The notes under the pieces are model-generated. The model made no database searches, had not been told where the DNA came from, and saw only the letters and a program-made list of their open reading frames with translations. 35,470 bases of DNA, taken from NCBI GenBank assembly GCA_018267585.1, contig JAFDYE010000110.1, positions 1-35,470 on the forward strand, in the 5' to 3' direction. Position numbers and translations under genes: made by a program. The DNA is from Bacteroidota bacterium (GTDB lineage: Bacteria; Bacteroidota; Bacteroidia; Chitinophagales; Chitinophagaceae). Shown here one piece after another: positions 1,159 to 34,243 of the stretch (position 1 is its first letter; each line of letters starts with the position of its first letter).

Positions 1159-1199
1159 AATCGTAAAGTTAACATTTAATCGGATCGGCAGGCAGGTGC

Positions 1200-3143: not shown

Positions 3144-3173
3144 AGTTGTAATTCATAGCCGCCGTCCTTGAGG

Positions 3174-6638: not shown

Positions 6639-6667
6639 TTCCAAAATCGATAATTATTTATAATAGC

Positions 6668-8128: not shown

Positions 8129-8161
8129 CGTTTTTGATTTTCTGTTTTTGGGAACCTATTA

Positions 8162-10210
8162 CTATTTTAATTCAATAAATTCCGGTTCATACGGCGGTAG
8201 CACGAACCGTTCCGTATAATTTCTCTCCGATAGAATGCCCCTGGCAGCCCGGTTGACCTTTATTTCTTTCGGATCACCGCTGACATTGAGATAGAGCACG
8301 TGATCCTTGTCGATCTGCCGGGCCATGACGCCCGCCGGAACCTCAGGACCCTTTTGAAGGGAAAGCTCGCTGATCAGTTGGTCCACAAGCGGCCCCAATA
8401 CCTCTCCCCTGGCGGGAAGCCCCACATAGATGGCCCTGCCCTTGCCATAGCGGTTGGACGTTATGATCGGATAGTCCTTGTCCAGACTGGTTAGCTTCCC
8501 CAACACTTCCGCACCGGCTGGCTCGACAACCTCGAAATACGCAGCTTCCGTGGCGATACGCTTCCCATCGTACAGGCATTCCAGTTTCTTTCCCGTCTCC
8601 TTGGTCCTGGAAACCTCATTCATGGCCGACGTCTCTTCATAATGCGCTACCCGGATCCCGAAAACATCGCTCAATAGTCCCGGATGCCGCGACGCATAGA
8701 CTTTCCCTGTTCCGTCAACAACCGCCGTATTCCCCGTCATCACCACCGTCCCTCCGTTGTTCACAAAATCCCGGACCCGCGCGGCAGTCGGTTCATCCAT
8801 CACGGAAAGGCCTGGCAGGAACAGCAGCTTGTAGTTCAACGGGCTCCTCGCCACGTCGATCACGCGGGCATCCATATTCCGGTAGGCAAATAGATCAAAA
8901 CAGGTCTGCAGCTGCTGCTGGTGTTGCTCGGTAAAATAACCACCCGCAATGACCGAAGGAAAGGAGAAGGCCAACCCAACCTCCGCCCGCTGCCTGTAAG
9001 GGAAATATTTTTCGATCTTCCTGAACTCCCCGGCAATCCTTTTATATTCGTCGTATTTTCGATTGGGCGTCCCGTCCCAATCCAGCATGCCTTCCAGGTA
9101 TTGCTCCTCTCCTCCGTGCATGCTTTGCCAGGTCCATCCGCACACCATCTGATTACCGTATAACAGCGTAGCATAGGCAGACTTGCGGATGGAATTGGGA
9201 ACCGCCGTCATGGTCGTGAACTCGGTACACCAAAAAGGCGTAACGCTTTCCATCTGTATCCTGGCCATCCCGAACAACGCGTCCATAATACCATAATTGG
9301 TCACCAGGGAAGGGCCGGGATAAAATCCACACCCTTCGCGCGTCATCTTTCCCGAATAGGCGATCGGCGAATAGTCGAAGAATTTCATGGGACTGTAATA
9401 CCAGGCATTGGTATTGACAAGGGCATGCGGCGCATTGGCGTTCACCTTATTGATCACTTTCATCAGAAAACCGCCGACCTCATCCGATATGAACCGCCGG
9501 AAATCCAGCACCCTTTCGGGAGCGCCGTTTATGTTCCCCGATACCGGCAACCCGATCTCCTGGAAATCACCTACCTTCCTCGACCATCGCTGACCCGCCC
9601 AGGCGGAATTCAGGCTGTCGACTCGGGAATATTTTCGTTTCAACCAGGTTATGAACCGCTGCCTGACCGACTCCGAATACGATATCGGGCCGTCTCCGGA
9701 CTCATTATCGATCCCGAAAGCCAGCAGGGCCGGATGACGCCCATAGTGCCGGGTCAGCGAGTCCGCATACCTCAAGGCATACCGCTGATAGTCAGGATCG
9801 CCGACATCCTCCATGTACCGATGGTTCGGATACTGCCTGTTCCCCTCCGCATCCGTGACATCGATAGACGGAAATTGGTGATGCAGCCATAGGGGCGCCG
9901 GCCGGACCGCGATATCCAGGATCACCTTGATTCCCGCCTCATCCATCCTATCCATCACCTTGTCGAACCACGCGAAATCAAAATGCCCGTCCGTCGGTTC
10001 ATAGCTGTCCCAGGCAAGATGCCCCATCCGGACAACCCTGAACCCCGCCTCCTTCATCAGCCGGATGTCCTGCGCGATCTTATCCATGTTCTTGTCATCG
10101 TGCGGATGATAGTTGGCCCCTACATATAAGGTCTGAGACCGTACAGCCGCCGCTGCCAGCAACATCAACCCCGCCACGAAACCAAAGATCCTAACTCGGT
10201 TACTCATCAT
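8162..10210 (-). CDS. GH42 beta-galactosidase
   Basis: 682 residues, the usual GH42 length, with a signal peptide ending at about residue 26 (AAVRSQ). The barrel starts VGANYHPHDD (30-39), a GH42 hallmark, and runs to about 400. The acid/base is E170 in FGIDNES and the nucleophile is E330 in FWCTEFTTM. A Rossmann-like beta-galactosidase trimerisation domain follows at about 408-600 (LLFLPGLSVMDE, VNNGGTVVMTGNTAVVD), then a small C-terminal beta domain. It should remove terminal beta-galactose from imported oligosaccharides in the periplasm. Two start codons lie in tandem (ATGATG at 10210). It begins only 6 bp after the SGBP stop, so it is firmly within the SusC-1 operon. With GH2 downstream, the operon encodes two presumptive beta-galactosidases. 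Confidence 0.93.
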   Translation of the reverse strand: MMSNRVRIFGFVAGLMLLAAAAVRSQTLYVGANYHPHDDKNMDKIAQDIRLMKEAGFRVVRMGHLAWDSYEPTDGHFDFAWFDKVMDRMDEAGIKVILDIAVRPAPLWLHHQFPSIDVTDAEGNRQYPNHRYMEDVGDPDYQRYALRYADSLTRHYGRHPALLAFGIDNESGDGPISYSESVRQRFITWLKRKYSRVDSLNSAWAGQRWSRKVGDFQEIGLPVSGNINGAPERVLDFRRFISDEVGGFLMKVINKVNANAPHALVNTNAWYYSPMKFFDYSPIAYSGKMTREGCGFYPGPSLVTNYGIMDALFGMARIQMESVTPFWCTEFTTMTAVPNSIRKSAYATLLYGNQMVCGWTWQSMHGGEEQYLEGMLDWDGTPNRKYDEYKRIAGEFRKIEKYFPYRQRAEVGLAFSFPSVIAGGYFTEQHQQQLQTCFDLFAYRNMDARVIDVARSPLNYKLLFLPGLSVMDEPTAARVRDFVNNGGTVVMTGNTAVVDGTGKVYASRHPGLLSDVFGIRVAHYEETSAMNEVSRTKETGKKLECLYDGKRIATEAAYFEVVEPAGAEVLGKLTSLDKDYPIITSNRYGKGRAIYVGLPARGEVLGPLVDQLISELSLQKGPEVPAGVMARQIDKDHVLYLNVSGDPKEIKVNRAARGILSERNYTERFVLPPYEPEFIELK

Positions 10211-10216
10211 ATTTAC

Positions 10217-11668
10217 CTATTTGATCTGTACTACTCTTAAATTATCAAAGGCAGCATAAAACCCCGTCGTCGTAGAAGAACTCGCATAGTTGTGGATATA
10301 CATCGTGCACGCACTGTTGCCCGACGCACCCAGCAGGTCGGCAAAACTCGCTATCGGAGCTCCCTTGCCATCTCCAAGCGTCGCGTCCTTGGATTTGAAC
10401 ATCCCGAAAGGGATCGTTACCGTCATCCACCCATGTGTCGAATATGCCGCTGTCCTGGTCGAAGACACTTGCCAGGGCTCCCATCGCGCGATATAGGTGC
10501 CCAACGAGCTCTGGATATCGATCGTTCCCCCATTCCAGCCGTTCGGAACGCTTACCTCGAACTTGAATGCCCAGTTACCTACCGCGTCGCCGAGATGCGC
10601 CGCCGGCACCCACTGCGCCGCATTTAAAAGAATGGCATAGCTGGAATAGGTATTCCCTTCGCCACCGGCAAGGATCCCCGTCTTCAGCACCATGTACTGA
10701 CTCGAATTACCGGGAAAATCCGCGTTGCCGCTGGTTAGGGTAGCGCCACCCCACCACTGCCAGTTGAAAACACCGCCCCATTCCCAGTTGGACAACGCAC
10801 CCGTCGCAATGTCATTCACATTGTATACGGTAGCCGTCGTACCGAATTTGGTCGTGACCGATACGGGCCCGGCGCCACTCAGCGCAGGCACTACAAAGCC
10901 AACCCAACTCCCATCGCCGGCGGATACAGTGGACGTAACATCGGCGCCCGCAAATGACAGCGACTGGATATTCTTGAGATAAGTTCCGAAGACATACACC
11001 GAATCACCCGGATTCGCATTCTCGTTGGATACACTGGTTATGGTGGGCGTAGCCACTATTTTGAAGTTGACCGTACCGCTCTTCGTAACGACCACTACCT
11101 GGTCGTTGCTCGTTTGCGCCGGCATGAGGAAGCCGAGAGAAGTTCCGTCGGCGCTCGAATGGAAAGAAGTTATTGCGGTACCCCCATATGAGAGCTGCTG
11201 AACCAGGACCAGGTTCGCGCCGGTAAGAAAGACAGAATCCCCCGGATTCGCAAACACATTGGATATCGCCGCTACAGTTGGCGCCGCCGGACCTAATTTG
11301 AACGGAAAGCTCGTCGACCCTGCCGCCGTCGTGTAGCTAACGGTATACAACTTTGTCGTATCCACCGACGAGAACAGGATGGCAGGTATCTGCACCACGG
11401 CGCTGCCCGGGGCGACCAGCGCGCTATTGAAGCCGGCCGCAACGCCATCGAACTCTATCCGCAATGGATTCTGTAGATTTTGCCCCGTGAGAACCACCCA
11501 CTGGCCATTGGCCACCAGACTCGTAAACACCGTATCATTGGGCGACGCGACATAATTTCGCACAGCGTTGATCACGGGAGGACTTCCGGCATTCTTTTTA
11601 CAGGCCGGCAACAGCCCCGCCACTAATAGCGCCGCAATGATCAGGCGGCAACAAAATATATTTTTCAT
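10217..11668 (-). CDS. Surface glycan-binding protein with TIG domains, SGBP-B-like
   Basis: 483 residues, lipoprotein signal with Cys23 in GLLPACKK. Three IPT/TIG Ig-like spacer domains are visible at about 33-125, 130-205 and 208-284; two of them open with the related strings NPGDSVFLTGANL and NPGDSVYVFGTYL. The C-terminal domain (about 293-483) is rich in aromatic residues (WEWGGVFNWQWWGG, 295-308; RWEPWQ, 395-400) and fits the glycan-binding domain of SGBP-B-type proteins, known from the B. ovatus xyloglucan locus. It would hold the polysaccharide at the cell surface next to SusCD-1. It follows SusD-1 by 25 bp, the usual SusE/F position. There is no catalytic domain. Direct evidence of the ligand is lacking. 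Confidence 0.85.
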   Translation of the reverse strand: MKNIFCCRLIIAALLVAGLLPACKKNAGSPPVINAVRNYVASPNDTVFTSLVANGQWVVLTGQNLQNPLRIEFDGVAAGFNSALVAPGSAVVQIPAILFSSVDTTKLYTVSYTTAAGSTSFPFKLGPAAPTVAAISNVFANPGDSVFLTGANLVLVQQLSYGGTAITSFHSSADGTSLGFLMPAQTSNDQVVVVTKSGTVNFKIVATPTITSVSNENANPGDSVYVFGTYLKNIQSLSFAGADVTSTVSAGDGSWVGFVVPALSGAGPVSVTTKFGTTATVYNVNDIATGALSNWEWGGVFNWQWWGGATLTSGNADFPGNSSQYMVLKTGILAGGEGNTYSSYAILLNAAQWVPAAHLGDAVGNWAFKFEVSVPNGWNGGTIDIQSSLGTYIARWEPWQVSSTRTAAYSTHGWMTVTIPFGMFKSKDATLGDGKGAPIASFADLLGASGNSACTMYIHNYASSSTTTGFYAAFDNLRVVQIK

Positions 11669-11693
11669 ACAACTTTGTTTTTTAGTAATTCAA

Positions 11694-13271
11694 TTAATAA
11701 TAGGGCACCGGCGGCTGGGCCAGCTTAGGATCCGACGTCAGTTCCGAAGACGGAATTTGCAGCGTAAAGGCGCTGATCGTTGCCGGTACGACACTGGGCG
11801 CGGCACTGGAATCCTTCGTGGCTATTCCCGTTGACGGATCATAAGAGAAAGTCATTCGGTATTGATTATTGATCATGCTGACTGCCTTTTGCGGATTGTA
11901 ATACGAAAGCCTCACCAGGTCCAGCCAATATTGGCCCTCAAAGGCAAATTCAAGTCTTCTTTCCGTAAGGATCGTGTCCGCATCCAGCATCGGCGCAGGG
12001 TCTACACCCGCCCTCGCCCGCACTTTGTTAAAATACAGCAGCGCATCGGGGTCCGTCGTGCTGGCATTATTTCCCAGGATCGCATCGGCATACACCAGGT
12101 ATACGTCGGCCAGCCGGAGAATGGAATTGTGCTCGACAGACGACCAGATATCCATCGTCGGTGCATTGTTGTCCTTCTCGTTGCCGATAATATGCTTTTT
12201 CATGCCTGACCCGGTTGCCTTGTAGCCGCCGCCCGCCGCATTGAGCTCGGGATAATAATCGCCGTTGAGCATGAACGAGGCTTTCCGTCTTACCGAATCC
12301 TTCCAGCTATAGTTCTTATAAAGGTCCCAGGTCGGCGCCAGGGGAACCCATGCACCCGACTTCTGCGGATTGATATCGCTGCTGGGTGAAAAGGTCAGCC
12401 AGTCGTTGCCATTGCCATAACCCACGCCGGCCGTCCACTGCAGGGCAAATAAGGATTCCGGGTTATCGTTGTACTGTGCCCTGAAAAGATTATAATAGCT
12501 GGCGAACAGCGACAATCCGCTGTTCCTGCACACACTGCCCGCATATTTTGCGGCGCTGTCCAGGAAGGCCTGGTTACGGCCCCCGCCATTCTGCCCCAGA
12601 CCCGCCACCATCAGATACACCTTAGCGAGCATCCCCTGCGCCGACCAGGTAGTTACCCGACCCGTCGCGTCCGTAGCCGGAAGATTCTGAGCCGAAAAAC
12701 TAAGGTCATTGATAACGAATTTGTAAACGTCCGTCAATGTATTCCTGTTTAGCAGCGGCTGCTTGATCAGCTTGGTATTGTCCTCCATGATCGGGACAGC
12801 GCCCCACAAGGCAGCCAGATGATAATAGGCTACCCCGCGAATAAACCTCGCCTCTCCGATAGCCGCATTCTTATCGGCCGCCGAAATAGTCGAAGCCGAC
12901 TGCTGCCGGACCGCATTGATAACTGTGTTACACTGCGCTATTACGTTGTAAAGTCCCGTCCAGCCGCTCGCCAGGATCCCATTCTGACCCGTGGTCGTAC
13001 GTGTATACAGCTGCACCAGGTCCCCATTATATCCGAAATAGGCATTGCCGCTCATTACATCCCCGAGCTGCAACAACGCCCCGTTATGAAATTGCCACCA
13101 GGGCGAACCGCCGTAAAGACTCGCCGTAGCCAGCCGCAGATCGGAAGTAGACTGATAAAAAGTTGTCGAACTGATCTGCGAGTTCGATGGACGCTCCAGG
13201 AAACTCCTTTTACATCCTGCTACCGCCGCCACAAGCGACAGTACCACAATTAATTTATTCGTTGCTCTCAT
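11694..13271 (-). CDS. SusD/RagB-family glycan-binding lipoprotein (SusD-1)
   Basis: 525 residues with a lipobox at VAAVAGC (Cys20). The N-terminal pattern FLERPSNSQIS, the TPR-like helices with VAYYHLAALWGAVPI, and the C-terminal SusD signature ERRLEFAFEGQYWLDLVR (437-454) identify the family. SusD proteins form a lid on the SusC transporter at the outer surface and help capture oligosaccharides. It is encoded 24 bp after SusC-1, as expected for a partner pair. The ligand, probably xyloglucan oligosaccharides, is inferred from the neighbouring enzymes. Confidence 0.95.
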   Translation of the reverse strand: MRATNKLIVVLSLVAAVAGCKRSFLERPSNSQISSTTFYQSTSDLRLATASLYGGSPWWQFHNGALLQLGDVMSGNAYFGYNGDLVQLYTRTTTGQNGILASGWTGLYNVIAQCNTVINAVRQQSASTISAADKNAAIGEARFIRGVAYYHLAALWGAVPIMEDNTKLIKQPLLNRNTLTDVYKFVINDLSFSAQNLPATDATGRVTTWSAQGMLAKVYLMVAGLGQNGGGRNQAFLDSAAKYAGSVCRNSGLSLFASYYNLFRAQYNDNPESLFALQWTAGVGYGNGNDWLTFSPSSDINPQKSGAWVPLAPTWDLYKNYSWKDSVRRKASFMLNGDYYPELNAAGGGYKATGSGMKKHIIGNEKDNNAPTMDIWSSVEHNSILRLADVYLVYADAILGNNASTTDPDALLYFNKVRARAGVDPAPMLDADTILTERRLEFAFEGQYWLDLVRLSYYNPQKAVSMINNQYRMTFSYDPSTGIATKDSSAAPSVVPATISAFTLQIPSSELTSDPKLAQPPVPYY

Positions 13272-13295
13272 ATTAATGCGCTTGATTGGTGATGG

Positions 13296-16200
13296 CTATT
13301 TAGCAAATGTGATATTGGCACCGATAGTGAACGTCCTCGACTGGGGATAGTACCCCTGGTCCCAGCCTGCCTGGAGAGGATTCCACGAACCGATCTCCGG
13401 GTCCATTCCCGAATAGTTGGTGATGATAAAGGCATTCGTCACCGTAGCGTACAGGCGGAACGACTGCAGGCGGGCCTTTGACAGGATACGCTCAGGCAAC
13501 CGGTACCCCAGCGTAATATTCTTACACCGGACAAAAGACCCGTCTTCAATAAAGAGATTGGAAGGGCGGTTATTACTATTCGTATTGTCATTCCGCAATC
13601 CTACGACATGCGTGTTTGGATTGGTGACATACACATTGTTGACATCGGACGCAGAACCATTAGGGTCTACCAGCGCGGTTCTCGCATAGTTCAGGACCGA
13701 CGAAAAGAAGTTGGTGTTGTTTTGAGCATTGGTCTGCGCTACCGCCAGCTCATTGAATACCTTGTTGCCGACACTGCCGCTGAAGAAGATATTCAGGTCG
13801 AAATTCTTATAGCTGAAGGTATTGTTGATGCCAAACTGGAATTTCGGGATGGGCGAACCCAAAAAGGTCTGGTCCTTTGTATCGATAACGCCGTCGCCAT
13901 TCAGATCCCTGAATTTCCGGTCGCCATACCAGATACCGCCGCCCGACGGAGAGATCGGATAGGGGTTTCCGCTCTGGTCGACAGGTAAGGCGTGCTTTTG
14001 AAAATCCGACGGCTTCGCAAAAATGCCATCGAAGATATAGCCATAGAATTCACCGATGGGCTGACCCACCACCGTCTTCTCGATAATATCGTTGATCACA
14101 TACGACTTCTGGCTTAGGTTAGCCTGGTCTCCGGCGCCCAAAGACACTACCCTGTTGACATTGCGGGATACCACAACATCGGATTTCCAGGTGAAATTCC
14201 GATAGTTCAAATTGGTAGAGCTGATCCTGAAGTCAAACCCTTTATTGGTGACAGCACCTACATTCACATATGGCGCCGCCATAGATCCGGGCGAATACCC
14301 GGCGGTAGTACCGGAGTACAGCGGCAACGGAACCTTTAACAAAAGCCCATCCGTTTTGCGGTAGTACCCATCGAATGAAAAGCTGATCCGGTTATTGAGG
14401 AATGATCCATCCACGCCCGCGTTATAATAGTTTGTTTTTTCCCATGTCACGTCGGGATTGGCCAGGTTGCTCTGGAATTGAGCGATACCCGACAATCCAT
14501 TCGCGACCGTAGAAAGCTGTGTGACAAAAGTATTGCCCGGGATGCCCTGGTTATTCGTCAACCCGTACCCGAGTCGCAGCTTCAATTCATTGATGACATT
14601 CACCGTCTTAAGGAACGCCTCGTTGTTGATCTTCCAAGCAAACGCTCCCGACCAGGTACTGACCCACCGGTTGTACGCCGGAAAATTGGATGATCCGTCA
14701 TCCCGGATATTACCGGTCAGAAGATACTTGTCGTTCCAGGAAAAATTGATCCGGCCGAACCAGGACTCCTGCGAAGAACCGAGGCCATTGTCGCCGGAGT
14801 TTTTCGCTGTGGTAGCGTCGCCCGCGTTGAGCGCCTGTACATTGTTGGCCGGGAAGTTCGACCTGCTGCCGAAGATATTTTCGTAATTGGACGACTGCGC
14901 TTCGTGCCCCGCCACCGTGTTGATACCGAAATGGTCGAAATTATGATTATACGTCAGGTAATTACGCAGTACGGCATAGATGTTCTGGCTATAATTCGAA
15001 GACCCGCTGTTCGTCCCGTTGACCAGCTTTCCAAAGGTATACGTCGGCGTAAAATTGTCCATCGTAGTGAAATCGAAATTGCCGGACACCTCATTTCGCA
15101 GCGCCAGGTCTTTGGTGAATTGGATTTCGGCATACGCGTTGCCGAACAGCTGATTTCTTTTCCGCTGATTCTTGATGAGCCGCGCAATCGCCACCGGGTT
15201 GGCGACCGGGTTCACCCAACCGCTGGTATTGGTAATACCGCCCCAGGTGCCGTCAGGATTTTTTACCGGAACATCGGGCGTAAGGTTCAGCGCCGAGTTG
15301 ATCACGCTGGCCGCGGTCGTGTTCACATTTTCGAAAATATGCGCCATCTGGAGGCTGGTCCCAACCTTTAGCCAGTTGGTCGTCTTGTTGTCCAGGTTCA
15401 GCCTAACGGAATAGCGCTGAAAATCCGAGCCGAGCGCCATACCCTGCTGCTCGAAATAGGAGCCCGACAGTAAATACTGTGTCCTGGCATCGCCACCGCT
15501 GACGGTAACCGTGTGGTTCATCTCCGGCGGCTTCCGGAATAGTTCTTTCTGCCAGTCGGTCCCCGCGCCAAGGTATTTCGGATTCGCAAATTCGGGCCTG
15601 ACATCGAAGCCCCATACCTGCGCCCGCGCGTTAATATAGGTTGCAAACTGCTGCAGGTTCATGGTAGGGAGCCTTTTGGGTATCTCCTGGAACCCGCCAT
15701 AAGCATCATAGCTGATCAGCGGCGCCCCCGCCTTACCTCTTTTCGTAGATATAACAACGACACCGTTGGTTGCCTGCGATCCGTAAATGGCCGTCGCAGA
15801 AGCATCTTTCAGTACATCGATCGTTTCTATCTCAGCAGGGTTGATCGAACCCAGCGGATTCGAGCCGTTGCCCGGATCGTTGACGGGAGGGATGATCACC
15901 CCGTCGATCACATACAGCGGGGAATTCGTTCCGCTGATAGAAGAGACTCCCCGGATCTGTATCGACACACCGCCGCCGGGCTGTCCCGAAACCTGCTGCA
16001 CCACAACACCCGCAACCTTCCCCTGCAGGGCCTGGTCAAAGGTCGCCGGCTGCGTCTTCATCAGCTCAGCCCCGGAAATAGAAGAAATGGATCCGGTCAC
16101 ATCCGGCCGGCGCACCTTGCCATACCCGATGACGACTACGTCATTCAGTTTGCTCCGGTCCTCCACCTCCAGCCGAATATTGACCATCGGACGGCTTCCC

Positions 16201-16490
16201 ACCCTGACCTCCCGGGGAGAATAGCCGACATAGCTGATGATTAATACATCGCCGCTTTTAGCATTCAGGCTGAACAGGCCGTCCTTGTCCGTCTGGACCC
16301 CGCCGGTACGCCCTCTGACCGTCACACTGGCCCCCTCGAGGGGTCTGTCGCCCGGCACGACCGTCACTTTTCCGGAAATTTTTTGGGAGACGGGCGGATT
16401 CTGTGCATATCCGCCGGAAGAGAAGAGAAAAAGGCTGAACAAGGCCATAAAAAGGCCGGTCAACCCTCGATTGAGATTTCGCTTTTTCAT
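13296..16490 (-). CDS. SusC/RagA-family TonB-dependent outer-membrane transporter (SusC-1)
   Basis: The ATG at 16490 gives 1064 residues beginning MKKRNLNRGL with a clear signal peptide (ends GGYAQ). The open frame continues upstream to a TTG at 16748, but that extension crosses the promoter and lacks a secretion signal at its start. The mature protein has a carboxypeptidase-D-like regulatory domain (ISGKVTVVPGDRPLEGASV), a TonB-box-like DVVVIGYG, the plug with VSGQPGGGVSIQIRG and SPLYVIDGV, then a large beta-barrel ending ANITFAK. It would import oligosaccharides across the outer membrane with SusD-1. It opens an operon that continues to the left edge, led by a 254-bp gap with a conserved promoter. 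Confidence 0.95.
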   Translation of the reverse strand: MKKRNLNRGLTGLFMALFSLFLFSSGGYAQNPPVSQKISGKVTVVPGDRPLEGASVTVRGRTGGVQTDKDGLFSLNAKSGDVLIISYVGYSPREVRVGSRPMVNIRLEVEDRSKLNDVVVIGYGKVRRPDVTGSISSISGAELMKTQPATFDQALQGKVAGVVVQQVSGQPGGGVSIQIRGVSSISGTNSPLYVIDGVIIPPVNDPGNGSNPLGSINPAEIETIDVLKDASATAIYGSQATNGVVVISTKRGKAGAPLISYDAYGGFQEIPKRLPTMNLQQFATYINARAQVWGFDVRPEFANPKYLGAGTDWQKELFRKPPEMNHTVTVSGGDARTQYLLSGSYFEQQGMALGSDFQRYSVRLNLDNKTTNWLKVGTSLQMAHIFENVNTTAASVINSALNLTPDVPVKNPDGTWGGITNTSGWVNPVANPVAIARLIKNQRKRNQLFGNAYAEIQFTKDLALRNEVSGNFDFTTMDNFTPTYTFGKLVNGTNSGSSNYSQNIYAVLRNYLTYNHNFDHFGINTVAGHEAQSSNYENIFGSRSNFPANNVQALNAGDATTAKNSGDNGLGSSQESWFGRINFSWNDKYLLTGNIRDDGSSNFPAYNRWVSTWSGAFAWKINNEAFLKTVNVINELKLRLGYGLTNNQGIPGNTFVTQLSTVANGLSGIAQFQSNLANPDVTWEKTNYYNAGVDGSFLNNRISFSFDGYYRKTDGLLLKVPLPLYSGTTAGYSPGSMAAPYVNVGAVTNKGFDFRISSTNLNYRNFTWKSDVVVSRNVNRVVSLGAGDQANLSQKSYVINDIIEKTVVGQPIGEFYGYIFDGIFAKPSDFQKHALPVDQSGNPYPISPSGGGIWYGDRKFRDLNGDGVIDTKDQTFLGSPIPKFQFGINNTFSYKNFDLNIFFSGSVGNKVFNELAVAQTNAQNNTNFFSSVLNYARTALVDPNGSASDVNNVYVTNPNTHVVGLRNDNTNSNNRPSNLFIEDGSFVRCKNITLGYRLPERILSKARLQSFRLYATVTNAFIITNYSGMDPEIGSWNPLQAGWDQGYYPQSRTFTIGANITFAK

Positions 16491-16559
16491 ATGCAATCGT
16501 CTTGGTTTTAACTTATAAGATCGATTCGCGGAATACCCGTCGATAATCCGCTTTCGATT

Positions 16560-16567
16560 CAAAAATA
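16560..16567 (-). promoter_or_regulatory. -7 promoter box of the SusC-1 operon
   Basis: On the minus strand this reads TATTTTTG, an exact match to the Bacteroidota -7 consensus TAnnTTTG. Transcription would start roughly 7 nt downstream, near 16553, leaving a leader of about 60 nt before the SusC-1 ATG. No good -33 TTTG was seen at the normal distance, which fits an activator-dependent promoter. The same 8-mer sits at the same distance from the conserved ATTTGCCGG in front of GH31. Confidence 0.6.
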
Positions 16568-16598
16568 ATTGGCTATGTCGATTGGCGGGGGAGTACGG

Positions 16599-16661
16599 CC
16601 GGCAAATCTTAGTGTGGAAATGTTCACCACAGGGGTACAATTCCGGTATTTCTGGGGTATC
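16599..16661 (-). promoter_or_regulatory. Putative HTCS operator upstream of SusC-1
   Basis: Read on the plus strand, GGGGTA occurs at 16632-16637 and again at 16654-16659, a direct repeat with 22-bp period separated by an AT-rich stretch containing AATTCCGGTATTT. On the promoter side, 24 bp away, lies CCGGCAAAT (16599-16607; ATTTGCCGG on the transcribed strand), and 31 bp further the -7 box. The whole arrangement recurs upstream of GH31 with identical 24- and 31-bp spacings. AraC-type DNA-binding domains, such as the C-terminus of the HTCS here, commonly bind direct repeats with about 21-22 bp period. Binding by that HTCS is inferred. Confidence 0.6.
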
Positions 16662-16744
16662 GTTCGTTAACCAGATGCATTTTACCCGACCCTCGGGCGT
16701 CCGGCGGACCGGCGCCCCCCGGAATGCGCGAAGGGAAGGATAGC
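16662..16744 (-). other. GC-rich inverted repeats after the thioredoxin gene
   Basis: Between the TlpA-like stop and the operator lie two adjacent small palindromes, CCCGAcccTCGGG (16685-16697) and GTCCGGCGGAC (16699-16709). They could form hairpins at the 3' end of the upstream transcript and slow polymerase. The stems are short and no U-tract follows on the transcribed strand (it continues TAAAATG), so a classical intrinsic terminator is not supported. Nothing else is visible in this stretch. Confidence 0.25.
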
Positions 16745-17818
16745 TCAATGAATATGCTCTTCCAGGAATAAACTCAGGCTTTTCAGGTCAGGATCCCTCT
16801 TAACGATCTTACCCTGACTATCTAACAAGAATGTTGTGGGAAAAGCCCTAATTAAAAGACCGGAAGCCTGATGTCCCCCCATGTCAAGATATTGGGGCCA
16901 GGGAAGCCGATATTCCCGGATCACTCTTTTCCAATCCTGTACAGACTTCTTATCATCGGTCGACACGGCCGCAACGGCTAACCCAAATGGTTCGTTTTCT
17001 TTGTATAGCTTCTTTAGTTCCTCAAATTCCCTTAAACAAGGACCACAGTGACTATACCAAAAATCAACCAATGCATATTTACTGTGCCGTGAAAAAAGAT
17101 CAATTTTAACCTTGTTCAAATTCGTATCCAAAAGCGCCAATTCTGGAAATGGCGCTCCCACGCCAAACCTCCGCATAGTCGCCATTTTTTTGGCAAGAAC
17201 CTTCCCCGCAAAACTGCTTCTTACAGGAACAGAAAGAGAATGATACGCGGAATCCAATAACGGGTCATACCCTCCTCCTGTCAGCTTCTCGATCATCTCC
17301 CATAGAACAATAAAAGATTCCCGATGAGCCCGGGCATAATTTAATAAAAACTGGCTCCTTTCGGTTTCGCGTTTTTCTTGTGCAGTTTCAAAATTTCTGA
17401 ACTCGCCCATGTATTTGTTCCCGATTCCCGGAATTTCTCTTATAGAGTCGATATTACAAGTGATATCCTGTATCCCGGAATTGACGATAAAATAATTCGA
17501 TATATATATTGGAACGGAATCGGCCGCGATACAAAGCCCGAACATAGACGGCTGAGAACAGAGGCCCCGGATCGTAAATTTTCCTTTGCTGATCATCGTC
17601 TTATGGAAAACCGCTTCTGTTGGATAATAAGAACTATCATAACTTACAGGAACCAGATACGCTCTCCCCATATCAATATTTATCTTTCCATTTAAAACAA
17701 AATGCCTGCCAGGCGACTGCCCGAATACAGACATAGTAAAAAGAAACCAGTTCATAAAAGGAAAGGTTGGCAAAAGCCAACCTTTCCAATGCGCTAAAAA
17801 TTTAATTAATTTTTTCAT
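16745..17818 (-). CDS. TlpA-like thioredoxin-fold protein with DUF4369-like N-domain
   Basis: 357 residues. A hydrophobic N-terminus (about 12-33, ending SVFGQ) suggests export or membrane anchoring towards the periplasm. Residues about 38-130 resemble the DUF4369 beta domain that often precedes thioredoxin folds in this phylum. The C-terminal domain (about 218-357) is TlpA/AhpC-like, with the redox motif CGPC at 258-261 (DFWYSHCGPC) and a FPTTFLLD segment carrying the probable cis-proline. The role would be thiol-disulfide exchange; the partner is unknown. Its ATG overlaps the GH5 stop by 4 bp (ATGA), implying coupled translation. It is clearly more AT-rich than its neighbours (for example 19 of 60 GC at 17461-17520), unlike a typical member of this locus and possibly acquired separately. 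Confidence 0.88.
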   Translation of the reverse strand: MKKLIKFLAHWKGWLLPTFPFMNWFLFTMSVFGQSPGRHFVLNGKINIDMGRAYLVPVSYDSSYYPTEAVFHKTMISKGKFTIRGLCSQPSMFGLCIAADSVPIYISNYFIVNSGIQDITCNIDSIREIPGIGNKYMGEFRNFETAQEKRETERSQFLLNYARAHRESFIVLWEMIEKLTGGGYDPLLDSAYHSLSVPVRSSFAGKVLAKKMATMRRFGVGAPFPELALLDTNLNKVKIDLFSRHSKYALVDFWYSHCGPCLREFEELKKLYKENEPFGLAVAAVSTDDKKSVQDWKRVIREYRLPWPQYLDMGGHQASGLLIRAFPTTFLLDSQGKIVKRDPDLKSLSLFLEEHIH

Positions 17819-19632
17819 TTTGTGATCTTTATCACCTTGAATGTCTTCACACCATTGGACCGGTACACGTTTACAACATACTCACCCACACCCAGCCCGG
17901 CGCCAATGAGCATCGACCTGGACGGACTCGTGATCCGCTGCATGGTCCTGCCCGAGAGATCGACAATGACGACCTCCTTCACCTGAGCCGGATCATCCAC
18001 CGTCAAATAGAATGCCGACGTAAAAGGATTCGGGTACGCACGCAACCCGCTGCCCGCCAGATCACCCGAAAGCGCAGCCGCGGCATTCCCAACTACCCCT
18101 CGTTGAACAGCCGCCGACTGAACATGCCCGACCGTACCTATCGTCCACTGCTGCGCCGTGCTGCCGCTATAGCTCCACTGACCCAGGTTGGCACCGTTGG
18201 TATAATTGTAGATCCCATCGATATACATGCCAGTCGCCTTGTTGGATAGTGTAAAATAACCACCGGACGGCTGTATCAGCCACAGCTGCGCGTCACTGCC
18301 GCTCAGCGCCCACTGCCCGCAGGCCGACCCGTTCGTCGTATTCGACAGACCATCGAGATACAGCCCCGTCGCCTTGTTGACAAGACTGACATACCTGCCC
18401 GACGGTACGATCTGCCATTTCTGCGCGTCGCTGCCGCTGTTGCTCCACTGCCCGCAGGCCGACCCGTTGGTATTCCTGTACATACCATCCACCAGCTGCG
18501 AGCTCGCGCGATTGGTGACCGTCACATACGCATTTCCCGCCCCCTGGTTCATAGCATCGATGATGCCCTGATCCAATACAGCAGCCGTGCTCCGGTTATA
18601 CATGGCCATATTGATATCCCAGACATACGGAATAAGCCCCTTGCTCCTGGCTGAGCTGACCACATATCGGTACCAGTACCTGCGCGAAGCATCCGCCAGC
18701 GTCTGGTCCGATGGCGGACTCAACGTCCTGCTCGGCGCACCGAATTCCCCGATGATCACCGGGATGCCCTTGTCCACGAACTTGGTCTTCATTAGATTGA
18801 AGTTCGAATCCAGATAGCTCTCTTCCCCATACGTGGCATTCCTGGTCACATCCGTCGTCGAATGATAGCCCGTCCCCCAGTAATAGAACATCTTACCCCA
18901 GCTGGCATCCTGGGTGAGGATACAGAACTGCGGAGGATCATAATAGTGCACCTCCACCATCATCCTGCCCCCGATCGGATCCGAAGGCAGCGTGTTCATC
19001 AGGGTATTGGTCAACCCCATATTCGTATTAGGCCCCTGTACGATCAGCGTACGCGACGCATTGTTCCCGCCCGTCGCCCTCACCGCATTGACAAAGGTCT
19101 GATGGTAGGACAGCAGCACCGACATCGCCGTCGCATCCGACGCATTCGGCTCGTTCGCGCTCGCAAACAACAGATGCTCGTCATAGTTCTTGAAATAGTT
19201 CGCGATCTGCGTCCAGTAGTTCTTCTGCTTGGCATTCACCGACGCCTGCGCGGAAGTGGTCACGTTGTTCTCCAGCCAGCCGTCGTCCCAGTGAATGTTG
19301 ATGATCACATAAAGACCGTTGTTGACACAAAGATCCACCGCCTGCTTCACCGTAGCCATCCAGCCCCCGTCGATGACCCCGTTGGTCGCATGACAGTCCC
19401 AGGCGCAGGGCAGCCTCACGGTGTTAAAACCCGAAGCCTTTACCTGGTCGACCATTGACTGGGTCAGCGTCACGCCTCCCCAGGCGGTTACGCTGCACTG
19501 CGCTTCCAGCGTGTTGCCTAAATTCCAGCCGACCTTTAATTTCGAGGCGATCGTTTGCGCCGTCGGCAGTTGCGCTCTTATGCCCATGGACATAAGGATC
19601 CCGATCATCAGGTAGACGATTTGCTTTTTCAT
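17815..19632 (-). CDS. T9SS-secreted GH5 endo-glucanase with ricin-type repeats
   Basis: 605 residues with a standard signal peptide (ends GIRAQ, about 21). The GH5 barrel (about 25-362) has VGWNLGNTLEAQ (34-45), VRLPCAWDC (72-80), acid/base E161 in FASANEPNAS and nucleophile E296 in VIIGEFGAP. Residues about 366-500 are three 45-residue ricin B-like repeats ending in QxW (QKW, QLW, QQW), a probable carbohydrate-binding domain. Residues about 531-605 start AYPNPF and match a type A sorting domain of the type IX secretion system. The enzyme would be released or attached outside the cell, unlike the lipid-anchored BACON-GH5, to which its barrel is clearly related. Endo-xyloglucanase or endo-glucanase activity is inferred. 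It begins 24 bp after the surface lipoprotein gene. Confidence 0.92.
   Translation of the reverse strand: MKKQIVYLMIGILMSMGIRAQLPTAQTIASKLKVGWNLGNTLEAQCSVTAWGGVTLTQSMVDQVKASGFNTVRLPCAWDCHATNGVIDGGWMATVKQAVDLCVNNGLYVIINIHWDDGWLENNVTTSAQASVNAKQKNYWTQIANYFKNYDEHLLFASANEPNASDATAMSVLLSYHQTFVNAVRATGGNNASRTLIVQGPNTNMGLTNTLMNTLPSDPIGGRMMVEVHYYDPPQFCILTQDASWGKMFYYWGTGYHSTTDVTRNATYGEESYLDSNFNLMKTKFVDKGIPVIIGEFGAPSRTLSPPSDQTLADASRRYWYRYVVSSARSKGLIPYVWDINMAMYNRSTAAVLDQGIIDAMNQGAGNAYVTVTNRASSQLVDGMYRNTNGSACGQWSNSGSDAQKWQIVPSGRYVSLVNKATGLYLDGLSNTTNGSACGQWALSGSDAQLWLIQPSGGYFTLSNKATGMYIDGIYNYTNGANLGQWSYSGSTAQQWTIGTVGHVQSAAVQRGVVGNAAAALSGDLAGSGLRAYPNPFTSAFYLTVDDPAQVKEVVIVDLSGRTMQRITSPSRSMLIGAGLGVGEYVVNVYRSNGVKTFKVIKITK
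18133..18537 (-). repeat. Three tandem 135-bp units encoding the ricin-type repeats
   Basis: Matching strings occur at 18176, 18311 and 18446, an exact 135-bp (45-codon) period. The second and third units share CACTGCCCGCAGGCCGACCC with no change, while the first has drifted (CACTGACCCAGGTTGGCACC). Each encodes one QxW beta-trefoil subunit. The outer borders are approximate. The high identity of two units suggests a fairly recent internal duplication or gene conversion. Confidence 0.7.
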
Positions 19633-19656
19633 ATGGATTCACGTTTATTGGTTTTC

Positions 19657-20475
19657 CTAGTGCGTATTCCAGTAATCCTGGCTCACATAGTTGTAGATAC
19701 ACCAGTCGTTGGCATCCTTCAACGCAATGATCTCCAGGCCGTCGGCCGTCAGCGACTTAATCGCCATTTTCGCATACCAGTTGGCGATATTCGGCCCCTG
19801 GGTCGGATCATGGATCAGCTGTGCGCCGATCGTAGCCAGCTGCATGGTATTCGTATAGAGCATGAACTTGCCGCTGGCCTGACCCAGCGCCGGCAACATC
19901 TTGTTATTGGAGCTGAAATTGGCGTTCCCGATCAGGTCAAAGGTCATCGTTCCATAGTCCCCCAACGGACAGATCCAGCTGGCCCAGCCGGCATCCCACT
20001 CCCAACCCGTCCCGCCAAAATAGATCGGGCCGTTGAACAGCTTGCTCCCGCCAGAAGACGTCAGATCCAAAACCCAGGTCTTCGACTTTCCATATCCCCC
20101 CGTAAGATTGGTCCACTCCGGCGTGCTCACAGCCACAGAATCCAGCGTGTTGATCGTTACGATCGTCGTATCGGCCTCCACAAGCCCGCCGGCGCTCTCC
20201 ACGCCATAGACGAATTTGTATTGCCCCGGGAAAGGAACATTGACCGTATCCTTCACCCGTTGCGACTGCCCGAAAGGCGTCACCCATACGGGCGTAAGGC
20301 CGGGCGTATTGCTCGTCAGAACGATATTATTGGGATTGGTCGATGAAGGCGCAATGGTGAACGCCAACGTCTTTTTATCAGCCAGGGGCCCCAACGAAAA
20401 TTTCTGCTTCATGCACGAGGTCAGCAGCACCACGCATCCCATCGTCACACAAACGCTATTTATGATACTTTTCAT
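19657..20475 (-). CDS. Putative surface glycan-binding lipoprotein in SusE/F position
   Basis: The ATG at 20475 is preferred; an upstream in-frame TTG (20502) lacks support. The product has 272 residues and a lipobox at LLTSC (Cys21). Residues about 45-110 look like a PKD/Ig-type domain (GQYKFVYGVESAGG). The rest (about 118-272) is rich in Trp and Gly (GGTGWEWDAGWASWICP, 154-170), resembling C-terminal domains of lipoproteins encoded beside SusCD pairs in beta-glucan loci. It is probably a second SGBP working with SusCD-2, with a fold different from the TIG-domain SGBP of the other operon. The gene starts 30 bp after SusD-2 and precedes the T9SS GH5. The function is inferred from position and lipidation. 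Confidence 0.8.
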   Translation of the reverse strand: MKSIINSVCVTMGCVVLLTSCMKQKFSLGPLADKKTLAFTIAPSSTNPNNIVLTSNTPGLTPVWVTPFGQSQRVKDTVNVPFPGQYKFVYGVESAGGLVEADTTIVTINTLDSVAVSTPEWTNLTGGYGKSKTWVLDLTSSGGSKLFNGPIYFGGTGWEWDAGWASWICPLGDYGTMTFDLIGNANFSSNNKMLPALGQASGKFMLYTNTMQLATIGAQLIHDPTQGPNIANWYAKMAIKSLTADGLEIIALKDANDWCIYNYVSQDYWNTH

Positions 20476-20505
20476 GACTTTTAGTTTTAGATGTTTAGGC
20501 AATGA

Positions 20506-22098
20506 CTACCACCCGGCGTTTTGTTTCAACATCCCGGATGACAACGTGATCTGATCGGAAGGTATCTGCTGGAATCCGCGAGTGGCCATGATGTTCGCCT
20601 GCAAGGTAGAAGCGCTGGGCTGCGAGCCCGTTCCATCGTTGATCAGAGAGAGCGTGGTATTCGCTGCAATGGTCGACGCAGCCGTAGAAAGCCCCTGACG
20701 CAAAAGATCCCAATACCGGATCCCTTCCCCGACAAATTCAAGCCGGCGTTCCGCAAGGATATCCGCCTTGGTGACGGCAGTCACAGGCGCCGCAGAAGGA
20801 ACCGCCCGCTGGTGTACCTGGTTGAAATACGACACGGCATTCGGACTTCCCAGCTCGGCCGCCATCAACAATACATCCGAATAACGGATAGCGAAATAAT
20901 CCTGGCTCTGCGCGACCTGGTAGTTGTCGACGGGAAGAGGGTTGTTGTTGACGTCACAGATCGGACTGTATTTCTTCATATAATACCCCGTGTACTCGCG
21001 ATTGGCGGCCTGCTTGCTGAACGCCAGGTGCTCCCCGTCGATCGAGGTGATCGAAGCAAAATACCGGCTGTCATTGGTCTGGTCGAACAGTGCCACCAGT
21101 TTGGGATCCACGGTACAGCCTCCCCAACCGAACCCATAGGGATAAACGCTCTGTTCGCGCATACCCGTCATGATCATCCATCCGTTGCCGGTAATGTTTC
21201 CGTTGTAGTCGCCCGCAGAAGAATACTTGATGGAAAAAACAACCTCCTTGTTGTCCTCTCCCGCATAGGTCACCTTCTTGGCCAGCGACGCAGCAGGCCA
21301 CAGCGTCGTATAGTCAGACACCAGGCCGTGGCCGCTGTGCGCGATCACATCCTCGACCGCAGCCAGGGCCGTAGCCGCCGTTTCCTTCCCGATCGAACTC
21401 TTTCCGTAATACCCCGAGTAGAACATATACACCCTTGCCAGTAAAGATTCAGCCGCCCACTTGGTTACCCTTCCCGTGGGTACGCTGGTATATGGCGCAG
21501 AAGGAAGATTGTCGGCCGCATACCGCAGATCGTCCATGATCTGTCCATATGTCGAGTCAGGAGAGGCCTGGGGCACATTCGCCAGATTGGGGACCGTCAG
21601 CAGGGGAACCTTTTCAAACAACCGGACCAGGTCGAAATAACAAAAAGCACGGATAAAACGGACCTCGCCCGTATATTGCGTTTTCAACCCCGTACTGTCG
21701 CCCCACGCCACATTGTCCATATGCTGCAGCAGGACATTGCACCGATAGATGGCCTGGTAATATTTTGTCCAGGCGGCGCTGTGAACAGCCACATCCGAGG
21801 GGGATATCGTCTTGTTGAACTCATCCATCATCTCCCATCCATACCCGTCCGAAGCGCCGGTACCGCCAAAACAGTTGTCGGAAAAGACCTCCATCAGCGG
21901 CGGTATCGCTTCCCCGTTCCAGATAAGGTTCAACCCGTTGTAACACCCTACCATAGCGGTAAATGCATCAGAAGGCGTTTTATAATAGGAGACGTCGGTC
22001 TGCTTGGGATCCGTGAGCGTCGTGGTCAGCCATTTCTTACACGAACCAAGCGTCAGCATCGCCAAAAAACCAATTATTATTATTTTATGACTTTTCAT
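20506..22098 (-). CDS. SusD/RagB-family glycan-binding lipoprotein (SusD-2)
   Basis: 530 residues, lipobox at LTLGSC (Cys20). The family is shown by the N-terminal KWLTTTLTDPKQTDVSYYK, the helical core with VRFIRAFCYFDLVRLFEKVP, and the SusD signature ERRLEFVGEGIRYWDLLR (450-467). It would act as the binding lid for SusC-2, encoded 17 bp upstream. It is only distantly similar by eye to SusD-1, so the two pairs look like different lineages and not a recent tandem duplication. Confidence 0.95.
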   Translation of the reverse strand: MKSHKIIIIGFLAMLTLGSCKKWLTTTLTDPKQTDVSYYKTPSDAFTAMVGCYNGLNLIWNGEAIPPLMEVFSDNCFGGTGASDGYGWEMMDEFNKTISPSDVAVHSAAWTKYYQAIYRCNVLLQHMDNVAWGDSTGLKTQYTGEVRFIRAFCYFDLVRLFEKVPLLTVPNLANVPQASPDSTYGQIMDDLRYAADNLPSAPYTSVPTGRVTKWAAESLLARVYMFYSGYYGKSSIGKETAATALAAVEDVIAHSGHGLVSDYTTLWPAASLAKKVTYAGEDNKEVVFSIKYSSAGDYNGNITGNGWMIMTGMREQSVYPYGFGWGGCTVDPKLVALFDQTNDSRYFASITSIDGEHLAFSKQAANREYTGYYMKKYSPICDVNNNPLPVDNYQVAQSQDYFAIRYSDVLLMAAELGSPNAVSYFNQVHQRAVPSAAPVTAVTKADILAERRLEFVGEGIRYWDLLRQGLSTAASTIAANTTLSLINDGTGSQPSASTLQANIMATRGFQQIPSDQITLSSGMLKQNAGW

Positions 22099-22115
22099 TT
22101 TTCTCTTTTTACCGA

Positions 22116-25100
22116 TTAGAAAATAATACTCACCCCAACCATCGTCTTTCTCGGACGGGGATAATAGCCCAGGTCGACACCCTGCCCGAAAGAATATATT
22201 CCGGAGGCATCGTACGAAGAATATCCGATCTCAGGGTCCATGCCGCTGTATTTTGTAAAGGTGAAGAGGTTCTCGCCAGCCACATACAGACGGAATTGGC
22301 TGAGACCTTTCCACTTCACCAGTTTTGCGAGATCGTATCCCAGGGTGATATTCGAAATTCTCCAATAGCTGCCGTCATGAATATAGAGATCGGAAAAATC
22401 GGTCCAATTGACATTGTTCTGGGTCACCCGGGGCATCGAATTGGAAGTGCCCTGTCCATGCCAGCGGCCGAGGATATCGGAGGTCCAGTTGCCATACGAA
22501 CTGGGCGCATCTCTATAGGACTGAACGATCTTATTTCCCGCAACGCCATTCGTTGTTATGGAGAGATCAAAATTCTTATACCTGCCGGAAACTCTAAAAC
22601 CAAACACATGGTGAGGATTCGGATCGCCGATGTTCACCTTGTCATCTGCTGTAAGGACGCCGTCCCCGTTCATATCCACAAACTTCACGTCACCGGGATG
22701 GGCAGAGGGCTGCAAAGGCGCGCCTGATTTCCCCTTCCATGCCTGCACGTCCGCCTCCGTCTGGAAGATCCCCGCCGTTTTATAACCCCAGAAATAGCCG
22801 ATCGGGTTTCCGGACGATGCCCGGAAAAATTCAGGAGCATTCACAAACAGGCTGTTCGAGCCGCCATGGATGATCCCGTCGGCCGTCGGAATATTGTTCA
22901 CCTTGTTCTGGTTATAGGCGTAGGACCCCGAGACCGAATAAGAGAAATCCTTTCCGATCGTATTGTTATAGGCCAATTGGAGTTCTACTCCCTTATTGGT
23001 GACGTTGCCGCCATTGATGTACGGATTTGTCGAAACACCCGCCGTCGCCAGCAGCGGCGCCGCCACCAGCCAGTCCTTCGTCAACTTGTCATAGAGATCG
23101 ATGCTTACGCTTAATTTGCTGTCCAGCAGCTGGGCGTCTGCACCGATATTGGTCTGCCGGGAGGTTTCCCATTTGGTCTTTTCAACGCCGATGGAGGAAG
23201 GATAGGAACCCTGCGTCAGGGCGCTATTGGTATTCCCAAAATTATACTGGGCATTCGCCAGGCTGATGAGAGAAAGGTAATTGAAGGCAGTAATGCCGTC
23301 ATTGCCGTTGGACCCCCAGCTCGCCCTCAGCTTTAGGAAATTCAGCCAGTTCCTGGTCGATGCCATAAAGGATTCCTCACTGGCTACCCAGCCCACAGAC
23401 AGCGACGGGAAATACCCCCATTGATGATCTTTGGCGAACATGGTAGAACCATCAGCCCGGAAAATGGCTGAAGCCAGGTATTTGTCTTTATAGGAATAGT
23501 TGATCCTTCCAAAAAAAGAAGCCTGGGCATAAATTGCATTGGCGTTCCCGGAAAGCGACATGGAATTGGTGACCGTCTGCCTGTTGGCGGTGGAAGTATC
23601 GGCGCTCATCTGTATAGAAGTGACATTGACAGTGCTCAGATAGCCGCGGTCAAAACTGGTGAACAAGGTTGACCCGGTATTGAACCCGCCTACATAAGTC
23701 CCCTGGTACTTGCGAACCGCGCTGCCCGCCAGAAAATCAAATTTGTGCTCTCTGATCCTGAGCAGGTAGTTGGCCGTATTGTCCCAGCTCAGCGTATAGT
23801 TAGTGGAGCTGTTCTGACCGGTCCTTTCGAACCGGTTATACGAGTACACAGACAGGTTATCATAGATCGGCAGATAGCTGTGATCCGCCGATGACGTATA
23901 GTTGAAGCCGAAAGTGGTCTTGAGCTTTAAATTTTTCACCGGCTGCAGCTCTGCAAAGACGTCCCCAAATAATTTCTGCGTCTTGGTGTCTTTTTGATTG
24001 TTGTAGGCCATCAAGGCATAAGGGTTGGCTTCACCCGTGTTCCAGGGACCTCCGTTATATACTGTCGACTTAAGGCTGCTCAGATAATTGCCCGCCGAGT
24101 CGTACATAGCCAGCAGCGGACTCGTCTGAAAGGCCCCGCGAAGCGAGTTACCATAGATCCCGCCGTCCTGGATCCCGTATTGGTTGATAAAGGAGAACGT
24201 CAGATGTTCCCCGATCCTCAGCGCTCCATCATACAATTTGCGTTCGGAATTCGTCCGGAAATTGTAGCGCTCATAATTGGAAAGCTTCTGGCCGCCGACA
24301 ATGCCACCCTGCTGCGTGTAGGACATTCCCAGCGAATAAGAGGAGACGTCGGACCCGCCGTTGACGGACAGATTATAATTTTGAACGGGCACATTGGAAG
24401 ACAACATCTCATCCAGCCAGTTGGTGCCCTTACCCAGTGAATTGATCTGCGACTGAGTAAAAAGAGCAGGCAGACCCGAATTCAACGCCGCCTCATTTTG
24501 CATCACCGCATATTCCCTGGCATCCAGCAGCTTAGTCTTCGGAGGAGAATTCTGCCAGCCATAGTAAGAATCAAAAGACACCTGACCCGCATTCTTGCTG
24601 CCCATTCTTCCGCTCTTTGTAGTGATCAGCACAACCCCATTCGCCCCGTTGATGCCGTAGATGGCAGCCGAGGCAGCATCTTTCAAAATGTCCACAGCAG
24701 CGATATCCGCCGGATTCAGGTACGTGATATCGCTCGTGATCACACCGTCCACCACATACAGCGGATTGGCATTTCCAATGGTCCCGGCCCCGCGGATATT
24801 GACCTTGAATCCTCCGCCCGGCTGGCCCGAGGTCGACGTAATATTAACCCCCGCCGCCTGCCCCTGCAACGCCTGCAGCGCATTGGTGGTATTCAGCTTG
24901 GCAAGGTCTTCCCCTTTGACATGGGCCGTAGCGCCTGTCACGGCCTTGGACTTCTGCACCCCATATCCGACAACGACGACATCGTCCAGCTTGGCATAGC
25001 TTTCAGCCAGCTGGATATCCATGCTGTTCATCCCTGGATCTATCCTCAACGTCTTCGTCGCATGCCCCACAGAACTTATTTCGACCGTCTCACCCGTCCT

Positions 25101-25325: not shown

Positions 25326-25352
25326 AACAGCAATTTTTGGTTATTAAAAAAA

Positions 25353-28214: not shown

Positions 28215-28234
28215 AGCAAGCAGTTATTTCTGAC

Positions 28235-28242
28235 CAAAAATA
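28235..28242 (-). promoter_or_regulatory. -7 promoter box of the GH31/SusC-2 unit
   Basis: TATTTTTG on the minus strand exactly fits the Bacteroidota TAnnTTTG consensus and is the same 8-mer as in front of SusC-1. The start of transcription would lie near 28228, giving a short leader of about 14 nt before the GH31 ATG. CATAGC is conserved just upstream in both promoters. No clear -33 box was seen. Confidence 0.6.
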
Positions 28243-28273
28243 GACTGCTATGCCCCACGCCAGGGTAGCCTTA

Positions 28274-28335
28274 CCGGCAAATGAAGGTATCGGATTGTTC
28301 TCACCTGGGGTATAATTCCGTTATTTTTAGGTATC
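28274..28335 (-). promoter_or_regulatory. Putative HTCS operator upstream of GH31
   Basis: Plus-strand GGGGTAT (28307-28313) and AGGTAT (28329-28334) form a direct repeat with 21-bp period around ATAATTCCGTTATTT. CCGGCAAAT lies at 28274-28282, 24 bp away, and the -7 box is 31 bp further on. The match to the SusC-1 promoter covers about 100 bp in order and spacing although the filler sequence has diverged. This argues for one regulator acting on both units, most simply the HTCS whose gene ends just upstream. Confidence 0.6.
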
Positions 28336-28399
28336 CAACGGTTCAACTACCTACTGGTTTACAAGACCGCTCGCAGCATCGGGGAATGAGTCCGGCGTC

Positions 28400-34165: not shown

Positions 34166-34204
34166 ATGGAGTAAAAGTAAAAGAACCCGAACTTAAGAAT
34201 TTTG

Positions 34205-34241
34205 CATAGATTCGACTTTGTATTACACAAATCCGACTTAG
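34205..34241 (+). promoter_or_regulatory. 21-bp-period direct repeat, putative AraC operator
   Basis: CATAGATTCGACTTTG (34205-34220) and CACAAATCCGACTTAG (34226-34241) match at 12 of 16 positions with a period of exactly 21 bp, two helical turns. This is the usual layout of an AraC-family dimer site. The second copy ends two bases before the AraC ATG, and the pair lies about 40 bp upstream of the GH29 ATG in the 78-bp divergent gap. It could mediate autoregulation and control of the GH29-HTCS unit. No exact TAnnTTTG box was found in the gap for either direction. Confidence 0.45.
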
Positions 34242-34243
34242 CC

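Follow-up and report, generated by a model that had tools for sequence, protein, structure and literature searches.

Class II activators of the AraC family help to recruit sigma through their promoter-proximal monomer, and at araBAD the direct repeats bound by AraC are about 21 bp apart, with the proximal one at the upstream core promoter element. HTCSs govern much of the glycan use in Bacteroidota, and their operators have mostly been predicted, one regulator at a time. The passages of Ravcheev et al. 2013 that deal with Bacteroides HTCSs give the predicted motifs as direct repeats with an average of 21 bp between the two sites, present HTCSs as thought to bind as dimers, and mention some distant regulon members (PMC3878776). 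Excerpts of further papers indicate that the receiver of HTCSs inhibits the DNA-binding domain (PMC11253607), that an HTCS fragment shifts promoter fragments (PMC5061871), and that the Bacteroidetes sigma-ABfr promoter has TAnnTTTG at -7 and TTTG near -33 (PMC7366714).

Here, we analyzed a window of 35,470 nucleotides (the whole stretch of DNA under study) that holds two copies of a composite element. On sequence comparison, we consider it quite probable that both copies serve as operator-promoters in a single HTCS regulon directed at a xyloglucan-like glycan, each with a doubled HTCS operator set at a constant distance from the -7 box. By analogy, the element would resemble the sites of class II AraC activators in its direct repeats of about 21 bp and in the proximal repeat at the upstream core promoter element, and differ from them in the membrane-tethered HTCS, the doubled operator and the Bacteroidetes sigma. 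Like the HTCS operators in the passages of Ravcheev et al. (PMC3878776), the element consists of direct repeats upstream of susC-led operons beside an AraC-type HTCS, with about two helix turns between sites (here steps of 21-23 bp), and it is likewise conserved before susC-led operons beside orthologous HTCSs. Unlike those operators of two sites, it has four half-sites in one register, and its fixed distance of 35 bp from the last half-site to the -7 box has no counterpart in the 2013 passages (PMC3878776). Its -7 box, TATTTTTG, is like that of the sigma-ABfr promoter as excerpted, whereas a half-site, not TTTG, stands at the -33 place (PMC7366714). HTCS direct repeats of about 21 bp were already known; neither the doubled operator nor the fixed -7 distance was found in the open-access literature, as far as its accessible passages go. 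The passages of PMC12125979 deal with a Vibrio regulator.

The locus and the two copies in the window

The features of the window are as follows (half-sites are numbered from the distal end).

1..16490, minus strand: unit A, with SusC-1, SusD-1, SGBP-B xyloglucan-binding-domain protein, GH42, GH5, esterase-GH39, GH97 and GH2
16671-16558, minus strand: copy A, whole element, before SusC-1
16655..16668, minus strand: copy A half-site 1, AACGAACGATACCC, its TACCC 22 bp ahead of the second TACCC
16633..16647, minus strand: copy A half-site 2, ACCGGAATTGTACCC, containing the GGGGTA / AATTCCG block of the earlier note
16610..16624, minus strand: copy A half-site 3, AACATTTCCACACTA, absent from the earlier note
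16588..16602, minus strand: copy A half-site 4, CCGGCCGTACTCCCC, a weak match at the place of a -33 box
16560..16567, minus strand: copy A -7 box, TATTTTTG
16745..28214, minus strand: unit B, with GH31, SusC-2, SusD-2, a 281-aa protein, GH5 with ricin-type lectin and a TlpA-like thioredoxin-fold protein
28346-28233, minus strand: copy B, whole element, before GH31
28330..28343, minus strand: copy B half-site 1, AACCGTTGGATACC
28308..28322, minus strand: copy B half-site 2, AACGGAATTATACCC
28285..28299, minus strand: copy B half-site 3, AACAATCCGATACCT
28263..28277, minus strand: copy B half-site 4, CCGGTAAGGCTACCC
28235..28242, minus strand: copy B -7 box, TATTTTTG
28400..32527, minus strand: HTCS, with Reg_prop propeller, Y_Y_Y, HisKA, HATPase_c, receiver and AraC-type HTH_18
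34202-35128: AraC-family regulator, with an AraC-type HTH

The window makes up a complete contig (C12) of a genome of 7.0 Mb in 929 contigs (95% complete), and the window ORF map places all genes of both units on the minus strand, with GH29 and then the HTCS upstream of copy B and unit B. The start of SusC-1 is the ATG at 16490 by our own choice, GH2 as the last gene of unit A is truncated at the contig end, and the 281-aa protein of unit B had no Pfam match. We infer xyloglucan as the substrate from the gene families in the two units. The HTCS carries Reg_prop, Y_Y_Y, HisKA, HATPase_c, Response_reg and HTH_18 in one chain, each above its curated cut-off; compared with the S/CHIP-DK interface motif, it has HIP at 1194-1196 with R replacing S/C, and the D-K part was not located. 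Its closest named records (at least 67% identity, among the best 80 of 150) belonged to Puia dinghuensis, Flavitalea sp. BT771, and Chitinophagaceae or unplaced Bacteroidota metagenome bins. A scan and fold for a terminator between the units gave no convincing site, so transcription may read through from the GH31 unit into the SusC-1 unit.

Aligned without gaps, copy A and copy B are identical at 68 of 112 positions, the window's next best place reaching 48, and GGGGTA-N{0,2}-AATTCCG occurs twice in the window and in none of 100 shuffles. The earlier note had described the same blocks in the same order before SusC-1 and GH31, with identical spacings of 24 bp and 31 bp, and this observation is real: both copies were confirmed on the minus strand and both spacings are as described, although the first half of the direct repeat is not identically spaced (22 bp in copy A, 21 bp in copy B). 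The interpretation that went with it is partly supported. Among the 18 copies described below, CATAGC is no general part, being intact by eye in just three (the two of the window and the GH31 copy of genome G022), and the ATTTGC block is indeed conserved but belongs to the fourth half-site region. Moreover, two TACCC-like half-sites had been missed, CACTAA (copy A) / TACCTT (copy B) and TCCCC (copy A) / TACCC (copy B), and the proposed single direct repeat with two other blocks gives way to four half-sites in a register of about 22 bp. Half-sites 3 and 4 of copy A are weak; in an unsupervised four-unit repeat test, the score of copy A was reached by 49 of 200 shuffles and that of copy B by 0 of 200, and copy A by itself is not beyond chance as a four-unit repeat.

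Half-sites and the -7 box in 18 copies

In the 18 copies, which all come from one genus and are not independent, the element consists of four copies of the half-site AAC-N7-TACCC with a typical spacing of 22/23/22 bp. When 12 copies were anchored on the second TACCC, words resembling TACCC fell at -22, 0, 23 and 45, each preceded by an AAC-like word some ten bases ahead, and the -7 box fell at +70; the last half-site starts 35 bp ahead of the TA of this box. The self-similarity of the profile was strongest at lags of 44, 66-68, 43 and 22 bp, and none of 2000 column permutations reached the 22-bp period statistic and one of 2000 permutations of five-column blocks did, while a window-based self-similarity score failed the column-shuffle control (best -2.9; null mean -6.8, 99% point +4.0). 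The mean top-base frequency was 0.80 in the half-site columns and 0.68 in the remaining columns. In addition, an A/T tract before half-site 2 lies at the same place as ATTTGC does relative to the fourth half-site region, which suggests the pairs 1+2 and 3+4.

TA..TTT starts at +70 in 15 of the 18 copies and at +69 in two, consistent with the fixed phase to the -7 box that had been proposed, and the copy before GH44 in genome G002 has CTTTTTTA in its place. These 17 boxes follow TAnnTTTG, with A or C, not G, as the last letter in four. Between offsets 40 and 53, which lie 16-30 bp before the start of the -7 box, none of the 18 copies has the beginning of a TTTG; just outside, it starts at 39 in four and at 54 in two, and the place of the expected -33 box is occupied by half-site 4.

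The TACCC word is best kept in half-site 2 and matches most poorly in half-site 3, as would fit one HTCS dimer on the upstream repeat (half-sites 1+2) only, with the stretch from ATTTGC to the -7 box left to sigma or a second factor; the published HTCS operator is likewise a single direct repeat in the passages of PMC3878776. However, we regard this arrangement as unlikely, since conservation in the same register extends to half-sites 3 and 4 (each AAC base of half-site 3 is kept in at least 16 of the 18 copies) and the profile lag of 22 bp scores no higher than those of 44 and 66 bp, since the Parapedobacter loci L105 and L106, which have only the proximal two units, use the places 35 and 57 bp before -7 (those of half-sites 3+4, not 1+2), and since ATTTGC starts 40 bp ahead of the -7 box, which is too distant for a -33 box.

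Distribution among genomes and the predicted regulator

An ortholog of the HTCS (at least 65% identity) was found in 8 of 98 genomes, its own included, two of them as fragments at contig ends, and 22 further genomes had only HTCS matches of at most 51% identity (E up to 1e-150; 6 first-look candidates scored per genome). For the element, a sequence-only profile was built from ten aligned copies of six related genomes, none of them from the window. Over its own 7.0-Mb genome (150 of 2347 first-look candidates scored), the profile matched 28234-28345 (E 9.7e-20) and 16560-16669 (E 1.1e-16), with E of 0.2 to 5 for the four further matches listed. Over the 98 genomes, with stricter filters and 38 first-look candidates scored per genome, it matched 18 places (E up to 0.001) among the candidates scored, every one of them in a genome with the HTCS ortholog (all 8 such genomes were represented, and none of the other 90 was); the species are closely related, so that this co-occurrence does not equal 98 independent trials.

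The genes behind the element are SusC-1, GH31, SusC-2 and GH5 (GH5-ricin), and also GH44 and GH3. Eight of the 18 places lie outside the training set: the pair in the window, a pair in G022 at the same two genes as in the window (GH31 and SusC-1), and one each in G009 (before GH44), G002 (before GH44, on a different contig from the main locus), G014 (before a GH3-esterase gene) and G007. The GH44 and GH3 places lend good support to a predicted pathway regulon, because the search had not asked for such genes. The place in G007 (L092 9400-10600, G007:C27; E 9.4e-9) is a weaker copy; the reading frame behind it is interrupted and may be a regulon member in decay. A search for GH44 in the window's own genome gave no match, but the control genomes gave none either.

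Bare motif searches are unspecific and only the whole composite stands out. The two-half-site pattern (up to 2 mismatches) had 40 matches in 8 genomes against 29 for the reversed control and was not above the control in 4 of the 8, and the first block of the earlier note (up to 2 mismatches) had 132 matches in the window's genome against 87 for the reversed pattern.

The occurrence of the element in all 8 genomes that have the ortholog and in none of the 90 others, together with the two strong matches in its own genome, is strong support for the window HTCS as its predicted regulator, which was the regulator first suggested, and one regulon of the two units (6 + 8 genes by our count) with predicted HTCS binding is well supported. 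The DNA-binding domains of the seven orthologs compared were 83-89% identical to that of the window HTCS, and those of other HTCS loci 44-64%, one side match of 31% excepted. Although the AraC-family regulator at 34202-35128 is part of the locus and carries an AraC-type HTH, binding by it is highly improbable, for matches to it (E up to 1e-60) occur in no more than 5 of the 8 genomes with the element and also in 7 that lack it; it was rejected as a partner because its distribution does not follow the element, whereas the HTCS, the other regulator seen in the window, does co-occur with the element. The chance that the two copies within one window are non-functional, through recent duplication of one promoter or coincidence, is next to negligible, in line with the earlier doubt on this point: the E values above came from a profile without either copy, the nearest match to copy A is the SusC-1 copy of G022 (0.73) rather than copy B (0.62), and copies from other species likewise come nearer to copy B (up to 0.73) than copy A does, so that the duplication is older than the species.

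With the doubled HTCS operator, the HTCS (28400-32527) would sense the glycan in the periplasm and phosphorylate its own receiver, and its AraC-type DNA-binding domains would occupy half-sites 1+2 and 3+4 as two head-to-tail dimers on one DNA face. The promoter-proximal monomer would cover the place of the missing -33 box and help to recruit sigma; we infer both the two-dimer occupancy and this role of half-site 4. Both units would then be switched on together, since both copies would be bound by the same HTCS. A doubled operator at a fixed -7 distance offers a testable model of how a membrane-tethered regulator and an unusual sigma factor work together, and would allow regulons to be assigned from the sequence only.

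GH29 and the AraC-family gene start back to back at 34165-34202, about 36 bp apart. The profile search of the window's genome gave no element copy before GH29 or the HTCS gene, and the GH29-HTCS unit is therefore probably under other control.

Spacing at other HTCS loci

A half-site matrix from the 18 copies was applied to 20 regions 3' of other HTCSs (34-48% identical), taken from other genera and from paralogs in this genus (20 of 22 loci, L031 and L038 being dropped). A four-unit chain at 21-23 bp was found at p < 0.05 against 300 shuffles in 9 of the 20 regions (L028, L030, L035, L036, L037, L098, L100, L113 and L119). All four units scored above zero only in L035, and 8 of the 9 passing regions had at least one unit below zero, so that two or three good half-sites carry the score there; L098 and L113 are similar regions, both from Chitinophaga, and in L119 the adjacent transporter genes lie on the opposite strand. 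The full element profile over 26 other HTCS loci found only L035 (E 0.04). In the unsupervised four-unit test, which has low power per sequence, the score was reached by 0 (L035), 3 (L113) and 9 (L105) of 200 shuffles; L040 (0/200) and L034 (2/200) were rejected, their repeats being without half-site letters and no half-site chain being present (p4 0.89 and 0.88). The doubled array is clear in few loci outside the genus.

We then scanned the distance from a half-site pair to TANNTTT[GA] without choosing the box, which was in range in 13 of the 20 regions. The scan peaked at 35 bp (mean 2.9) with a shoulder at 36 bp (0.8) and a second peak at 57-58 bp (means 0.0 and -0.4), and the means outside 34-37 and 56-59 were -5.8 to -15.5; 7 of the 13 regions scored at least 6 at 35 bp, L098 not among them. 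Half-sites 35 and 57 bp before -7-like boxes are found downstream of other HTCSs, including those of Chitinophaga and Parapedobacter. In ten regions with boxes chosen by eye, a choice by which the means lean upward, the best distances were 35, 57, 36, 58 and 102. Counted from the box in this set, L028, L035 and L100 have four units above zero, and L098 and L113 are spaced 22/23/22 like the window element with a weak third unit; two boxes (L037 and L039) are off consensus, and the unpicked test is the distance scan of the 20 regions.

A strict AACA/AACA/-7 pattern over 8 genomes gave 75 matches against 67 for the reversed control. Its distance histogram (74 of the 75 matches, one overlapping repeat being dropped) peaked at 34 bp with 7 of 74, against a mean of about 2.4 per distance and 6 at 24 bp; five of the seven matches at 34 bp adjoin an HTCS, and this peak is suggestive only. 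Tentatively, and with rather less than even confidence, we propose that HTCS promoters share a positional grammar, in which half-sites would lie 35 and 57 bp upstream of -7, with two more at about 80 and 102 bp in promoters of a doubled class. In this grammar, a second HTCS dimer would stand head-to-tail on the first, and the proximal monomer would replace the -33 element. If true, such a positional rule would let HTCS regulons be read directly from Bacteroidota genomes.

In the window, G022 and G032, the four-half-site element stands before GH31. In G007 (L055 400-700), G002 (L059 7582-7900) and G014 (L064 8062-8400), GH31 follows a second HTCS, which is about 41-45% identical to the window HTCS (50% in one fragment), and its operator there is a different one, with two TTTGCAACA words at a distance of 22 bp and, judged by eye, a TAGTTTTA at 35 bp. 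On these sequences, the regulon seems to have been rewired within the genus. In G009 (L051 16595-16760), the GH31-type promoter and its start word are kept with SusC-2 directly after, as if GH31 had been lost and its promoter retained.

The start word is a CGATTGC- or GCTTGC-like word just ahead of the ATG of the first genes of the units. It was seen at 16491-16505 and 28215-28225 of the window and also in L052, L055, L058, L060, L063, L089 and L090. Similar words also stand before some genes without this operator, and the word is perhaps a translation-start feature of the genus.
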